Assembly (NCBI GenBank): GCA_026706165.1
Contig: JAPOZF010000577.1
Location: forward strand, 1 to 7,227
Origin: Gemmatimonadota bacterium
Lineage (GTDB): Bacteria; Latescibacterota; UBA2968; UBA8231
Length of the DNA: 7,227 nucleotides
Direction of reading: 5' to 3'
Shown here: positions 1,298 through 7,106 of the stretch, piece by piece
Layout: each line of letters begins with the position of its first letter
How positions within the stretch are numbered: the stretch's first letter is position 1
Notes under the pieces: model-generated
Seen by the model: the letters and a program-made list of their open reading frames with translations, nothing else
Databases searched by the model: none
What the model was told of the DNA's origin: nothing
Translations under genes and position numbers: made by a program

Positions 1298-3622
1298 TTG
1301 ATCCCATCCACCGCCACCGTAGTCGAGGTACTCAAGGCCTCCCTCGAAGCCGCTGCCGGTCACAACCCCAACGACGCGGTGCCGCCGGCCGCCATCCTGT
1401 GGACCGACCCCGACGCCCGCTGGCAGTCGCTCATCCCGCACCTGCTCCCCCTGATGCCGCACCTGCTTGTCTTTGGCGAGTACGATCCTGAGAACCGAAG
1501 CGGACCCTCGATCTGGTTGCGTTGCGTCATCGAGGGAGTTCTGGGGCCTCCCGAGATCCCAGACGAGTCGACGCCAGTCCTCTACCTGCCCGGTGTGGGC
1601 CGAGGGGAACTGGGCGCCGCGGAGACGTGCCCGCATCACCTGAAACCCCTGGTCGAGCTCCAGTACCGGGGCGTCTGCTGGAAACAGAAGAACGGCAGGG
1701 ACTGGACCGTGGAAGCCTTCCTCGCATCCCCGGACGGCGGCCTTGGACTGGACCTCGCCAAGGACGCGGTCACTCGTGATGCCATGCACCGCGCTCTCCC
1801 CGAACTGGCTGCCACCCCGGTACAGGCGCTACAAAGCCGGCGCCTCGAAGCGGAGGATTTCGACCGGCTCTTCTCCAACGATCCAGTCAGGGATCTGCTG
1901 AACTGGATGAGCGACCCCGAAAATGTGAAGGCCCGCTGGACTGGTGGGAGGTGGAATGCCTTCCGGTCGCGCTGCCGGGCGGATTTCGCCTTCGACCCGG
2001 AGCAGGACGGCGAGCTGGCCGCGGCGGAGTTGCTCGGCAAGCGGGAAGGGGCCTGGGAACCGGTGTGGAACCGTTTTGCCGAGTCCCCGGCGCCGTACGC
2101 GGGTGTGCCCGGGCTGCTGCGCAAGGCCGGGCCGGACGACCTGTTCGCCCGGGGTTCTTCCTGGCCCCAGCACAACGAGGCGGACGAAAACGCCCTGCGG
2201 GAGGCTTTTCAGAAACTCGAAGGTCCCCCAGCCGCCGCCGGAAAAAAGATCATCGAGCTCGAGAAGAAACACGGTGAGCGACGCGGTTGGGTCTGGGCGA
2301 AACTCGGCCAGGCGCCTCTTGCGGACGCCCTCGGGCACTTGGCTGTTCTGGCTTCAGGGGCTTCGAACGAGTTGGGCGGGGCCTCCATTGCGCAGATGAC
2401 AGAGCGGTACGCCGGGGAGGGCTGGAAGGTGGACGACGCCGCCCTCCGCAGCATGGCCGCGGTGAAGTCGGCCGCGGACACCCAAGCCGTAAGCCAGGCA
2501 CTGGACGCGGTCTACCGGCCATGGCTGGAGTCCGCAGCCCGGCATCTGCAGGAACTGGATCGGCCAGTTGTGGTACGGGACCGGCAGGAATCATATGGTG
2601 CGCCGATCGAACCCGGGACGGTGATTCTCTTCGCTGACGGTCTGCGTTTCGACGTGTCCCAGCGCCTCGTTGAGCTACTTCGAACAGGAGGCCGTTCCGT
2701 TACCGCGTCACCGCAATGGGCCGCCCACCCTACTGTCACGGCGACCTCGAAGCCGGCGGTCTCTCCGGTGATCAATCGCATCAAGGGTCTTTCCCTGGGG
2801 GAGGGATTCCAGCCGGTAACCGCGGATGCAGAACGCCCCTTGACCTCCGATCGGTTTCGCGGGCTCCTCAAAGCTGCCGGATACCAGTGCCTCGGGACGA
2901 ATGAGGCGGGAGATCCTTCGGGCCGGGCTTGGACCGAGCATGGAGAGTTGGACAGGCTGGGCCATTTGCTGAAAGCGGGGCTGGCCCCCCGAATCGACGA
3001 CCAGATCGAACGGCTGTCCGAACGGATAACCATGCTCTTGGAGGAAGGGTGGCAGGAGGTCCGCGTGGTTACCGATCACGGTTGGCTGTGGCTTCCGGGC
3101 GGCTTGCCGAAGGTCGACCTCCCCAGGTACCTGACCATCAGCCGGTGGGCGCGCTGCGCGGCCATGGAGGGCGGCTCCACTGCCGAAATGCCGGTTGTTG
3201 GCTGGGATTGGAATCCCCAGGAACGTATCGCAGTAGGGCCAGGAATCGCCTGCTTCGAAGCGGGCAACCAATACGCCCACGGAGGCTTGAGTCTCCAGGA
3301 AAGCCTGGTGCCCGTTATTCGGGTCACCTCCGGGGAAGGCTCCGGAAAGGCTGAGATTCGCATCACCGACCTCACCTGGGTCGGCTTCCGGTGCCGGGTG
3401 CGGGTCGAGCCCGTCCTTCCAGGACTGTCGGTCGACTTGAGAACCCGCCTAGGAGACGCGAATTCCAGCGTCAGCACGGCGCGTCCCGTGGACGACGATG
3501 GCGCCGCTAGCCTGTTGGTCGGCGACGATAGCCTGGAGGGAACAACCGCGGCGATTGTCGTCCTCGATTCCGGCGGTCAAGTCATTGCCCAGCAATCGAC
3601 GATTATCGGAGGTGAAGAGTGA
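1298..3622 (+). CDS. pglZ: BREX system alkaline-phosphatase-like protein PglZ (type B-like)
   Basis: PglZ is a core BREX component with an alkaline-phosphatase-like fold that works with the PglX methyltransferase and BrxB/BrxC. Its chemical role is not settled. The 774-residue product shows every expected motif: the metal-site strand F-A-D-G-L-R-F-D (residues 445-451, D447), the nucleophile region H-P-T-V-T-A-T-S-K-P (477-486, candidate threonine T479 or T481), V-T-D-H-G-W (591-596, D593/H594) and A-H-G-G-L-S-L-Q-E (660-668, H661). The N-terminal part, with N-D-A-V-P-P-A-A-I-L-W-T-D near residues 25-40, Y-L-P-G-V-G-R, and Q-Y-R-G-V-C-W-K-Q-K-N-G-R-D-W-T, is the form I associate with BREX-1 PglZ 'type B'. 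The start is TTG at 1298; it gives the N-terminus normal for the family, and no ATG or GTG is available upstream in frame. The gene is intact and overlaps brxL by four bases (GTGA), so the two are translationally coupled. The subtype is less sure than the family. Confidence 0.95.
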   Translation: MIPSTATVVEVLKASLEAAAGHNPNDAVPPAAILWTDPDARWQSLIPHLLPLMPHLLVFGEYDPENRSGPSIWLRCVIEGVLGPPEIPDESTPVLYLPGVGRGELGAAETCPHHLKPLVELQYRGVCWKQKNGRDWTVEAFLASPDGGLGLDLAKDAVTRDAMHRALPELAATPVQALQSRRLEAEDFDRLFSNDPVRDLLNWMSDPENVKARWTGGRWNAFRSRCRADFAFDPEQDGELAAAELLGKREGAWEPVWNRFAESPAPYAGVPGLLRKAGPDDLFARGSSWPQHNEADENALREAFQKLEGPPAAAGKKIIELEKKHGERRGWVWAKLGQAPLADALGHLAVLASGASNELGGASIAQMTERYAGEGWKVDDAALRSMAAVKSAADTQAVSQALDAVYRPWLESAARHLQELDRPVVVRDRQESYGAPIEPGTVILFADGLRFDVSQRLVELLRTGGRSVTASPQWAAHPTVTATSKPAVSPVINRIKGLSLGEGFQPVTADAERPLTSDRFRGLLKAAGYQCLGTNEAGDPSGRAWTEHGELDRLGHLLKAGLAPRIDDQIERLSERITMLLEEGWQEVRVVTDHGWLWLPGGLPKVDLPRYLTISRWARCAAMEGGSTAEMPVVGWDWNPQERIAVGPGIACFEAGNQYAHGGLSLQESLVPVIRVTSGEGSGKAEIRITDLTWVGFRCRVRVEPVLPGLSVDLRTRLGDANSSVSTARPVDDDGAASLLVGDDSLEGTTAAIVVLDSGGQVIAQQSTIIGGEE
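3608..3612 (+). promoter_or_regulatory. Ribosome binding site for brxL
   Basis: GGAGG lies inside the end of pglZ, six bases before the GTG start at 3619. It is a strong Shine-Dalgarno sequence and supports GTG 3619 as the brxL start. Confidence 0.75.
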
Positions 3623-5481
3623 GACTGGAGCTGGACGAACTCGACCAGAGGGCGGCGAACGCCTTCGACGGCTACCTGGTTCGCAAGGATCTGGTGCGCA
3701 AGTACAGCCGTCAGTACCCGGTTCCCACCTACGTCGTCGAGTTCCTGCTCGGGCGCTACTGCGCTACCACTGACGAGCGGGAAATCGAGGAAGGACTCGA
3801 AATCGTGGAGCGGCAACTGGCCGACCGCACGGTACGGAGCGGGGAAGAAGAGTTGTTTAAGGCCCGTGCGCGCGACCTCGGTTCCATCAAGCTGATCGAC
3901 ATCGTCAAGGCGAGGCTTGACGCAAAGACCGATTCGCTGATTGCCGAGCTTCCCAGCCTCACGCTCAAGGATGTCCGTATCGAAGACAGTCTGGTCAAGC
4001 AGCACGAGCGCATGCTGACCGACGGTTTCTACGCCGAGGTGACGCTGAGCTACGATGCCTCCATCGCCCAGGAGAAGAACGGGCGACCCTTTGCGGTAGA
4101 TGGTCTCCGGGCAATTCAGCTCTCCAAAGCCGACACGCTGGATACCCTCCGGCAGGGCCGCAGCCAGTTCACCAGCGAGGAGTGGAAGCGAATCCTGCTG
4201 CGCAGCATCGGTCTGGAGCCCGACGCGCTCTCCGAAAGGGCCCAGATGGTGGCGCTGATTCGAATGACCCCGTTCGTCGAGCGCAACTTGAACATGGTGG
4301 AGCTGGGGCCGCGCGGGACCGGCAAGAGCCACCTGTTCCAGCAGATTTCCCCCTACGCCCACTTGATCTCAGGCGGCAAGGCGACGGTTGCCAAGATGTT
4401 CGTCAACAACGCCACCGGGCAGCGCGGCCTCGTCTGTCAATACGACGTGGTCTGTTTCGACGAGATCGCCAGCGTCTCCTTCGATCAGAAGGACGGGGTC
4501 AACATTCTCAAGGGGTACATGGAATCAGGGGAGTTCTCGCGCGGCAAGGAGAGCATCCGGGCAGATGGCGGCGTAGTCATGGTCGGCAACCTCGACGTGG
4601 AAGTCGAGCACCAGCAACGGATCGGCCACCTGTTCAGTCCCCTGTCCGCGGACATGCGCGACGATACGGCCTTCATGGACCGTATCCACGCCTACGTGCC
4701 CGGATGGGACTTCCCCAAGCTCAACCCGAACGAGCACTTCACCAGCCACTTCGGCCTTGTCAGCGATTTCCTCTCGGAGTGTTGGAGTCGGTTGCGCACC
4801 GGCAGCCGCGTTCAGCAGTTGCAGGGAAGGGTTAACTATGGCGGCGCGCTCAGCGGACGGGACATCACCGCGGTCAACAAGACCGTTAGCGGCCTGCTCA
4901 AGCTGCTGTACCCTGATCCTGATTCGCCGGTACCGGACGATGAGTTGGAGCCGCTTGTGCGATTGGCAATGGAAACCCGCCGCCGGGTCAAGGAGCAGCA
5001 GAAGCGGGTGTTCAAGAGCGAGTTCCGCAACACCCAGTTCAGTTATGCGATGGGTGAAGACGGTATAGAGAAGTTCGTCGCGACCCCGGAACTGCGCAGC
5101 GACGACGCCATCGATCCGGACCCGTTGCCTCCGGGCCAGGTTTGGGGAATCGGTCCGGGCGGGCCGGAGACGGGTCCCTCCCTTTATCGAATCGAAGTCA
5201 CGGCGGGACCGGGAAGCGGGGTAAGGATTCTGAACTCGCCGGTGCCGCAACCGTTTCGCGAAAGCACCAGGTACGCAGAGCAGAACCTGTACACCCGGGG
5301 GAGGGAGCTGGTTGGAGACCGCGACCCCCGAAGCCATGAATTCTCCGTGCAGCTCCGCGCCTTGGACACCGACCGTTCAGGCGCGTCTCTGGGACTGCCG
5401 GCACTTCTGGCGCTTTGTGGCGCGTTGCTGGAAAAGAGACAGAAGGTCGGACAGATCGTGGTGGGTCAGCTGAACCTCTGA
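3619..5481 (+). CDS. brxL: BREX Lon-like AAA+ protein BrxL, cut by an in-frame stop at codon 621
   Basis: BrxL is the Lon-like BREX protein, an AAA+ ATPase ring that binds DNA and is needed for phage restriction in studied BREX-1 systems. The start is GTG at 3619, which overlaps the pglZ stop. The N-terminal region (about residues 1-200) contains the conserved Y-P-V-P-T-Y-V-V-E-F-L-L-G-R-Y-C. The ATPase core has Walker A G-P-R-G-T-G-K-S (230-237), Walker B V-V-C-F-D-E (277-282), a sensor-1-like V-G-N-L-D (322-326) and D-R-I-H-A-Y-V-P-G-W (354-363). The Lon-like domain follows from about residue 500, with S-G-A-S-L-G (587-592), where S590 corresponds to the Lon nucleophile. TGA at 5479-5481 ends the frame after 620 residues, right after G-Q-L-N-L, in the middle of this domain. 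The normal family length is near 680, and the missing 64 codons continue in the same frame to 5673. The product as written therefore lacks the end of the Lon-like domain. Activity is doubtful unless the stop is bypassed, the tail is supplied separately, or the TGA is an error. Confidence 0.92.
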   Translation: MRLELDELDQRAANAFDGYLVRKDLVRKYSRQYPVPTYVVEFLLGRYCATTDEREIEEGLEIVERQLADRTVRSGEEELFKARARDLGSIKLIDIVKARLDAKTDSLIAELPSLTLKDVRIEDSLVKQHERMLTDGFYAEVTLSYDASIAQEKNGRPFAVDGLRAIQLSKADTLDTLRQGRSQFTSEEWKRILLRSIGLEPDALSERAQMVALIRMTPFVERNLNMVELGPRGTGKSHLFQQISPYAHLISGGKATVAKMFVNNATGQRGLVCQYDVVCFDEIASVSFDQKDGVNILKGYMESGEFSRGKESIRADGGVVMVGNLDVEVEHQQRIGHLFSPLSADMRDDTAFMDRIHAYVPGWDFPKLNPNEHFTSHFGLVSDFLSECWSRLRTGSRVQQLQGRVNYGGALSGRDITAVNKTVSGLLKLLYPDPDSPVPDDELEPLVRLAMETRRRVKEQQKRVFKSEFRNTQFSYAMGEDGIEKFVATPELRSDDAIDPDPLPPGQVWGIGPGGPETGPSLYRIEVTAGPGSGVRILNSPVPQPFRESTRYAEQNLYTRGRELVGDRDPRSHEFSVQLRALDTDRSGASLGLPALLALCGALLEKRQKVGQIVVGQLNL

Positions 5482-5673
5482 GGTTCTGAGGAGCAAATGC
5501 CAAATGCCGTCGGCATCGTGGAAACCGCGGTCGAAAAAGAGGCCGAAACCGTGCTGATCCCTGTCTCCGCTCGCAAGCAATTGTTCGATCTCTCCGACAA
5601 CATGGCGACGCGCGTCAATGTCCAATTCTACTCCGACACCCCCGATGCCCTGCTGAAGGCATTGCTGGAGTGA
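5482..5673 (+). pseudogene. brxL: C-terminal remainder of brxL after the in-frame TGA
   Basis: This stretch continues the brxL frame without any shift. It encodes the last 64 or so residues of the Lon-like domain. The run N-A-V-G-I-V-E-T-A-V-E-K, then T-V-L-I-P-V-S-A-R-K-Q-L and V-N-V-Q-F-Y-S-D, is what I expect after L-N-L-G-G-S in intact BrxL proteins. With the upstream part and the stop codon, the total is 685 codons, which fits the normal family length. The remainder itself has no further stop or frameshift, so the damage looks recent, or the sequence is still under selection. If translation starts at ATG 5497 the piece would be a 58-residue polypeptide. By eye, the place of the Lon catalytic lysine in this segment is not a lysine (near N-A-V), a feature I believe other BrxL proteins share. 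It is called a pseudogene fragment by default; it could equally be part of a working split or read-through gene. Confidence 0.75.
5488..5493 (+). promoter_or_regulatory. Possible internal ribosome binding site for the detached BrxL tail
   Basis: GAGGAG starts seven bases after the TGA that ends brxL and lies three bases before an in-frame ATG at 5497. The spacing is short, but the GAGG core alone sits five bases away. It could allow reinitiation by ribosomes that stop at 5479. Confidence 0.3.
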
Positions 5674-5735: not shown

Positions 5736-6668
5736 ATGAAAGGGGACCTGCGCTACTCGCTGTACGTCCTCGCCTCGGCCGCGTCCGCGGCGGCAGGACT
5801 GCTGCTCACCGAGATCGCCCTGAACTTCTACCCGGCGACCACCCTGCAGATCGCCTTCCTGGCGAACATCGTCGGCGGGATCTTCCTGCTGCTCCCCTAC
5901 CTCCGCGGCGGCTTTCCCTGGCGGGGCTGGCCCGCGTCGGACTGGCTGCGCTTCGCCGTCTCGGCGGCGGCGATCTACGCGGCCGGGTTCGTGGTGCTGT
6001 TCGCCGCCATCGCCCGCGTCGGCTCCAGCAAGGTGATCCTGCTCAGCCGCGTCGAGACTATCTTCGTCGTCGTTCTCGCCGTGATCTTCCTCGGGGAACG
6101 CTGGTCGGGCCGCCACTGGTTCGCCTCCTTTCTGGCGCTCGGCGGGGCGACCTTAATCAGCTTCGATCCCGGGGTGCTGCAGCCAACGCTCTCCTGGGGA
6201 GACGGCCTGACTCTGCTCGCCGCCTTCCTCGTGGCCGCCGGCATCGTCATCCTCAAGCCGCTGCTGATGCGGCGGGACGCCCGCTTCGTGACCGGGCTCG
6301 GGCTTCTGGCCGGCGCCTTCTGCCTGGGGCCGTTCCTCTACGCCGACAGCAGCCTCCCGGCGGGGGCTTCCCTGGTAACCGCGCCGCTGTTCCTGCTGCT
6401 GATCGCGGTCCGGGGGCTGATGCTGGGGATATCGTGGGCGACCTACAACGCCGCCATGAGGCAGATCGGCGCTTCCCGCTGCGCCGTGCTGTTCCTGTCG
6501 GTCTCGTTCCTGACCGTGGCCCTGCAGGTGTTCGTCGACGCCGCCGCTCCCGGCCTGGGGCTGCGGGTGCCCGACAGCCTGGCCACCGCGGTGGCCGGCG
6601 GCATCGTCATCTCGGTTGCGGTGGCGTTGGTGCAGCGCGACCCGGACGGAAGCGCGGAGGAGGCCTGA
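5736..6668 (+). CDS. EamA/DMT-family transporter (10 TM)
   Basis: This is a 310-residue inner-membrane protein of the drug/metabolite transporter superfamily, whose members mostly export small metabolites or amino acids; the substrate cannot be told from sequence. About ten hydrophobic segments are visible, near residues 8-28, 34-56, 71-92, 98-119, 127-143, 154-174, 185-203, 212-232, 246-268 and 280-300, forming the usual two five-helix repeats. The first repeat has the classic end S-R-V-E-T-I-F-V-V-V-L-A-V-I-F-L-G-E-R-W. The second has A-T-Y-N-A-A-M-R-Q-I-G-A-S-R but lacks the matching G-E after helix 9 and has F-V-D-A-A instead. The ATG at 5736 has no clear Shine-Dalgarno sequence. Composition is much richer in GC than the BREX genes, which suggests an ordinary host gene. 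It lies 62 bases after the end of the brxL remainder and could receive read-through transcription from the BREX operon. No link to defence is implied. Confidence 0.88.
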   Translation: MKGDLRYSLYVLASAASAAAGLLLTEIALNFYPATTLQIAFLANIVGGIFLLLPYLRGGFPWRGWPASDWLRFAVSAAAIYAAGFVVLFAAIARVGSSKVILLSRVETIFVVVLAVIFLGERWSGRHWFASFLALGGATLISFDPGVLQPTLSWGDGLTLLAAFLVAAGIVILKPLLMRRDARFVTGLGLLAGAFCLGPFLYADSSLPAGASLVTAPLFLLLIAVRGLMLGISWATYNAAMRQIGASRCAVLFLSVSFLTVALQVFVDAAAPGLGLRVPDSLATAVAGGIVISVAVALVQRDPDGSAEEA

Positions 6669-6686: not shown

Positions 6687-7106
6687 TCACGATTCCCAGG
6701 GGTTCTCGTCGTCGAGATGGCAGGTGACGACCGCGGCGACCAGCTCCTCCTCACCGACCGCCTCGATGTCGTGCTCGACCCCGGGGGGCATGTAGGCAGA
6801 GCCGCCGGGGCCGACCGTCCTCTCCTCCTCCCCTACCCTGATTCTCGCCTGTCCCGCAAAGACGTAGTAGCACTGCTCCCAGGACTCGTGGCTGTGGCTG
6901 CCGTGCGCCTTGCCGGGGGGCCAGGTGTGAATGGAGAGCTGAATCCGCCGCGTCGGAAACTGGTTCAGCTCCCTGCCGGTCTTCTCCGGGCCGTAGATCC
7001 CGGGCGGGCCGGCGATGATGGAGGAGAACCCCTCCGGCTCGGGGCGGTGCAGAAACCCGGCGAACGGCGCGAGATCTTCGGAGGTGTGGATATGGTTCAT
7101 GATCAT
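6687..7106 (-). CDS. Small cupin-domain protein
   Basis: This is a 139-residue single-domain cupin. Motif 1 is well kept, with G65, H71, H73, E77 and G85 in the order G-x5-H-x-H-x3-E-x7-G. Motif 2 has G101, P107, G109 and H112, so the metal ligands would be H71, H73, E77 and H112. It is a soluble cytoplasmic beta-barrel, probably metal-binding. Small cupins of this type may be enzymes (dioxygenases, isomerases) or sugar- or ligand-binding proteins, and the sequence does not decide between these. The start is ATG at 7106; a second ATG at 7100 is only two codons later. Both follow AGAGAGA, a weak ribosome binding site that fits the second ATG slightly better. The frame is open further upstream but offers no good start there. 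It runs convergent to the transporter gene, with 18 bases between the stops and no hairpin terminator visible between them. Confidence 0.87.
   Translation of the reverse strand: MIMNHIHTSEDLAPFAGFLHRPEPEGFSSIIAGPPGIYGPEKTGRELNQFPTRRIQLSIHTWPPGKAHGSHSHESWEQCYYVFAGQARIRVGEEERTVGPGGSAYMPPGVEHDIEAVGEEELVAAVVTCHLDDENPWES

Follow-up and report, generated by a model that had tools for sequence, protein, structure and literature searches.

An in-frame stop codon in brxL of a BREX type 1 locus that is probably part of a patch of sequence error

Does the TGA that interrupts the reading frame of brxL in this contig mark a BREX system which has lost its BrxL protein, or is the stop codon absent from the organism itself? 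The window (the whole stretch of DNA analysed here, 7,227 nucleotides) carries brxL directly behind pglZ, and a first-pass annotation had explained the stop by a single G-to-T change (GGA to TGA), predicting a cell which still methylates BREX sites and no longer excludes phage, with read-through of the TGA or a sequencing error as alternatives. The features of the window are as follows:

3-512, + strand: 3' portion of a HATPase_c_4 gene (RecG-like C-terminal domain) upstream of pglZ; the window begins inside this gene
569-793, + strand: gene for a KTSC-domain protein, beside the BREX genes
866-1213, + strand: open frame of 115 codons, no family match
1298-3622, + strand: pglZ, BREX-1 PglZ type B, intact, TTG start and TGA stop (PDLC02566, E 7.4e-294; NF033450, 885.5 bits)
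3619-5673, + strand: brxL, GTG start, with an inner stop
3619-5481, + strand: brxL piece 1, 620 codons from the GTG to the in-frame TGA, with BrxL_N, BrxL_ATPase and the start of the Lon-like domain
5437-5502, + strand: patch of codons 607-628, frame kept, with the inner stop inside it and 9 of the window's 11 never-seen residues
5479-5481, + strand: TGA in brxL, at a column which is glycine in relatives
5482-5673, + strand: brxL piece 2, 63 codons of the BrxL C-terminus in the same frame, final TGA at 5671-5673 (PDLC02506, 617-677; TIGR02653, 619-672)
5488-5499, + strand: GAGGAG, CAA and ATG, a candidate re-initiation site (judged from the sequence) for 58 codons at 5497-5670
5736-6668, + strand: gene for an EamA-type transporter
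6687-7106, - strand: gene for a cupin protein

The interrupted brxL gene and its surroundings

The GTG start at 3619 and the TGA at 5479-5481 share one reading frame, and brxL comprises 684 codons when this inner stop is counted, or 685 when the final stop is counted too. Both pieces match one PADLOC model, PDLC02506 (BrxL), piece 1 at 4-615 of its 680 positions and piece 2 at 617-677, which agrees with the first-pass description of the gene, domain, frame and length and of the position of the stop. Piece 1 scored above the cut-offs for BrxL_N (149.1 bits, cut-off 28.2), BrxL_ATPase (420.9, cut-off 25) and TIGR02688 (454.4, cut-off 329.3), and below that for TIGR02653 (548.1 versus 628.25). 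The order of N-terminal, AAA+ and Lon-like domains is that of the LonP-type BrxL of BREX type 1 (PDLC02506; solved structures 8EMC, 8EMH and 8EIL), with the difference that in the letters as given the stop removes the last 64 brxL columns, approximately the last third of the Lon-like domain; a full-length BrxL with a whole Lon-like domain is hence absent from these letters, piece 1 ending at 615 of the 680 model positions. The full-length protein P0001, which is the closest relative among the homologues listed and is 98% identical to piece 1, aligns to 8EMC over 7-682.

The adjoining pglZ gene overlaps brxL by four bases and encodes a BREX-1-type PglZ of 774 aa, which matches the PADLOC profile PDLC02566 over 3-773 of 774 and exceeds the NF033450 cut-off of 400 with its 885.5 bits, and the first-pass view of pglZ as intact was thus upheld. 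When compared with 83 more distant loci, pglZ had 17 unseen residues with at most three per 22 codons, and no cluster of unseen residues like that in brxL (see below) was detected in this comparison.

With regard to the other neighbours, relatives of the HATPase_c_4 gene were found in 24 of 96 loci, the strongest hits (e.g. L008, L011 and L004) being located no more than a few hundred bases before the part that matches pglZ, and this gene looks like a recurrent BREX companion. The KTSC-domain protein had relatives in three loci (L001, L012 and L010), while the 866-1213 frame had no Pfam, NCBIfam or PADLOC match at E 0.01 and no hit in the loci compared. For the full-length BrxL protein P0006 and for P0179, a relative of the EamA protein of the window, the longest contig listed is 37381 bases in each case, a hint that they belong to the same neighbourhood, there with a whole brxL.

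Relatives at the stop site and a near-identical allele

A protein search with piece 1 scored 8000 candidates, and the 120 homologues listed have lengths of 684 aa (107 proteins), 683 aa (11), 679 aa (1) and 734 aa (1). At the DNA level, 90 loci were compared, consisting of the best 80 of 442 loci from genomes, 7 viral contigs and 3 loci from further genomes, and 89 of these are open through the stop site with a glycine codon in that place, although L088 in this count is the same gene as L001. The same column is glycine in 107/107 proteins of length 684, in line with the G which the first-pass annotation had assigned to relatives, and BrxL relatives naturally ending at this point, which that annotation had named as evidence against a broken gene, were seen neither among the 120 listed homologues nor among the 89 open loci. 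The 90th locus, on a viral contig (L087, 4431-5483), loses its brxL match after residue 351 with other sequence following, and represents either a truncated brxL copy or a chimeric contig. No stop was present in 11 later loci with a whole or nearly whole brxL (L091-L093 and L097-L104), four of which are genes already counted.

The best protein identity among the best 80 of the 442 genome loci was 87%, and matches were also found in 16 plasmid records (60-80% identity), in the 7 viral loci (best 76%) and in three genome groups (3/53, 4/17 and 20/369 genomes, best 82% DNA identity). There was no match in the E. coli genomes, and one exact 27-base pattern had 0 occurrences in the viral contigs. 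With the nearest DNA found at about 82% identity, there was no basis for counting synonymous changes within the patch.

A search with the 63-residue tail gave 56 small proteins, the best of which was P0121, a 71 aa protein on a 2503-base contig, which equals the tail of the window except at two columns and also covers columns 614-621. P0121 shares with the window P628 and N661 (both in 0/107 relatives) and T636 (2/107), which places it in the same lineage as the window or nearly so. It has the family residues at positions 617, 621, 624 and 627, with glycine at the stop column, and an allele which is intact at this site therefore exists in the same lineage. Of the eight differences from P0001 in codons 607-627, four can be compared with P0121 and none of these is present there, the other four being upstream of its reach; since residue 628 is common to P0121 and the window, the patch seen in no other sequence is reduced to 5437-5499, and only 607-627 holds changes private to the window. 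P0121 gives no information on 607-612, its first codon corresponding to 614, inside the patch: this may be the edge of its contig, or else the frame is interrupted further upstream, and the lineage would then have a real break. The other small proteins (P0122-P0176) include many with the BrxL C-terminus only, some on contigs hundreds of kilobases long, suggesting that it is not unusual for brxL to be broken or for a start to be called inside it.

The cluster of unique residues and its explanation

The window was compared column by column with the 107 relatives of length 684, with the inner stop shown as such. There are 11 residues in the window which are never seen in these relatives, nine of them in codons 607-628 and the others at 436 and 661, and adding 86 loci leaves eight, i.e. 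seven at 607-627 plus N661. In a leave-one-out control with the 107 relatives, the maximum number of unique residues per 22 codons was 0 in 48 proteins, 1 in 47, 2 in 10, and 3 and 4 in one protein each, versus 9 in the window, with the caveat that the protein list is clustered and that some of the relatives are nearly identical to one another, altering their chance of unique residues. Compared with P0001 alone, there are 18 differences in 684 columns with nine of these within 22 codons (eight residues in 607-627 differ, stop included), while the tail beyond 628 differs at 636 and 661 only. When 18 differences were placed at random, with all codons assumed to be equally variable, 0 of 200,000 placements reached nine, and the highest value, eight, was obtained once. 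The sign is weaker at the base level, because eleven of the 14 differences at the 872 positions with 90% or higher conservation across the 86 loci are scattered over the gene (two of them past the patch) and three are in the patch, where at two positions 86/86 loci agree. There is no indel in the patch and the frame is kept, and the smallest set of base changes required is at least nine, apparently all transversions as read by eye from the codon table. The stop is thus one member of a tight cluster of never-seen residues; a lone nonsense change was rejected on this ground, and the single G-to-T change originally proposed is unsupported as an explanation.

Based on this tight cluster of unique residues which includes the stop, on the kept frame, and on the near-identical allele without the changes where it is comparable, we consider it most likely (probability about 0.7) that the organism does not have this brxL stop, which would stem from a patch of wrong base calls or faulty assembly. 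The approximately 60 bases at 5437-5499 of the assembled sequence would then carry several wrong bases, probably originating from low-quality or low-coverage reads in a short and presumably metagenomic contig, and what the population really carries in this BREX type 1 locus would be an uninterrupted brxL of 684 codons, encoding an ordinary LonP-type BrxL; its living members probably have the gene intact. The clustering, the undisturbed frame and the near-identical allele lacking the changes are also features of known nonsense and frame artefacts in assembled sequences, and a technical cause of the patch is, on sequence comparison, the most likely one. Sequencing error, the last of the alternatives in the first-pass annotation, has accordingly moved to first place through the cluster and through P0121 reading through the site.

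Two more specific origins of the patch were rejected. The sequence AAGAGACAG at 5434-5442, which we take to be the end of a transposase adapter, occurs once in the window (0.04 occurrences expected by chance) and a longer adapter pattern fits with one mismatch, but it extends over no more than the first edge of the patch, and an adapter remnant is a hint rather than an explanation. Copying from elsewhere in the window, by template switch or local conversion, was discarded as there is no exact match of at least 9 bases covering two changed bases on either strand. According to a review of sequencing errors, A-C and G-T transversions are the dominant substitution errors in Illumina data, and errors become more frequent near GC-rich motifs and inverted repeats (PMC4719071; PMC3622629). 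About half of the patch changes are of the A-C or G-T kind, with the rest of kinds which the review does not name as dominant, and this pattern gives only mild support for error. A narrow term search of the literature found nothing on stops in assembled genomes.

An unlikely alternative to sequence error is that brxL is a real pseudogene, with BrxL lost by the nonsense change and the odd neighbouring residues representing further real changes, due to relaxed selection or to a burst of mutation at this place; such a cell would still methylate BREX sites without restricting phage. The stop is real in the letters, P0121, which starts within brxL, could point to a break in its lineage as well, and the studies on Acinetobacter (PMC9122589) and on StySA (PMC9009780) describe BrxL as needed for restriction and not for methylation, as the first-pass annotation had stated for the E. 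coli system. Decayed brxL copies also exist, an example being L095, a fragment of a second brxL (columns 475-569, with one inner stop) in a genome which has an intact brxL as well (L091). Relaxed selection should however scatter changes, whereas the 662 columns outside the patch hold only two never-seen residues; the tail past 628, as described above, departs from P0001 at two positions only. Spread changes, indels or loss in sister strains, as expected of a pseudogene, were not found, since the changes are clustered, the patch lacks indels and P0121, comparable only from codon 614, is without the stop. A gene-conversion donor is unlikely as well, because seven of the residues occur in neither the 107 proteins nor the 86 loci, and nowhere else in the window, on either strand, is there an exact copy of at least 9 bases that covers two changed bases. 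The proposed cell which methylates but does not exclude phage finds no support in this sequence.

It is very improbable that BrxL is made in two pieces, with re-initiation at the ATG at 5497 behind GAGGAG and a 58-residue piece which would complete the Lon-like domain in trans or act alone. The GAGGAG-CAA-ATG stretch lies 6 to 15 bases past the stop and in frame with the tail, and in Salmonella StySA a brxL 3' remnant altered transcription globally, for which the authors favour a translated stand-alone C-terminal piece (PMC9009780). By analogy, a real patch might create two coupled genes, as the stop, GAGGAG and in-frame ATG fall within 21 bases, and the 58-residue end of an inactive Lon-like domain might regulate BrxL or act itself, a proposal to which we give equally little credence. 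The StySA remnant is likewise a C-terminal brxL piece separated from the rest, but it stems from a laboratory cassette insertion and measures about 700-800 nt, compared to 63 codons in the window. Only three bases, a short spacing, separate GAGGAG from the ATG, P0121 lacks both the stop and the methionine at 627, none of the 55 other small tail proteins listed starts at this methionine column, and several other unique changes would be needed alongside; furthermore, the break falls inside a folded domain, given as residues about 498-679 of the solved BrxL in PMC10164562.

Decoding of the TGA as an amino acid, via a changed code, selenocysteine or the read-through suggested in the first-pass annotation, would fit with the conserved residues continuing in frame past the stop, but is hardly credible given that 6/7 other gene ends checked are TGA, that pglZ ends on TGA at the end of its family, that the column of the relatives is glycine and not cysteine, that the short perfect inverted repeat which surrounds the stop (visible in sequence and fold) folds no more strongly than shuffles (z 0.07), and that the window has no Rfam match at gathering score. 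Equally implausible is a naturally short BrxL comparable to the type 4 BrxL, described without C-terminal extensions in PMC12839542, as the stop is within the domain and not ahead of it, PDLC02506 is 680 long with piece 2 matching its end, and the alignment contradicts it with all 120 listed homologues being at least 679 aa.

Implications for BREX systems

According to two reports, the Lon-like domain of BrxL has no protease dyad and connects two rings in a tail-to-tail arrangement (PMC10164562; PMC12839542), and a break inside this fold would probably destabilise BrxL. The effect of BrxL loss on restriction and methylation outlined above is not a universal rule, since, according to the introduction of one paper, BREX in E. 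coli and Acinetobacter requires BrxL and Salmonella BREX does not (PMC12839542). The same source describes a type 4 BrxL which lacks the Lon-like domain altogether, and a shortened BrxL therefore need not be dead. A real stop would mean a strain occurring in nature whose BREX system methylates without being able to restrict, and with it a ready test of the role of the BrxL C-terminal domain. If it is an error, which is more likely, it warns that the surroundings of a lone stop in an assembled defence gene should be screened for clustered unique residues before the system is declared inactive.
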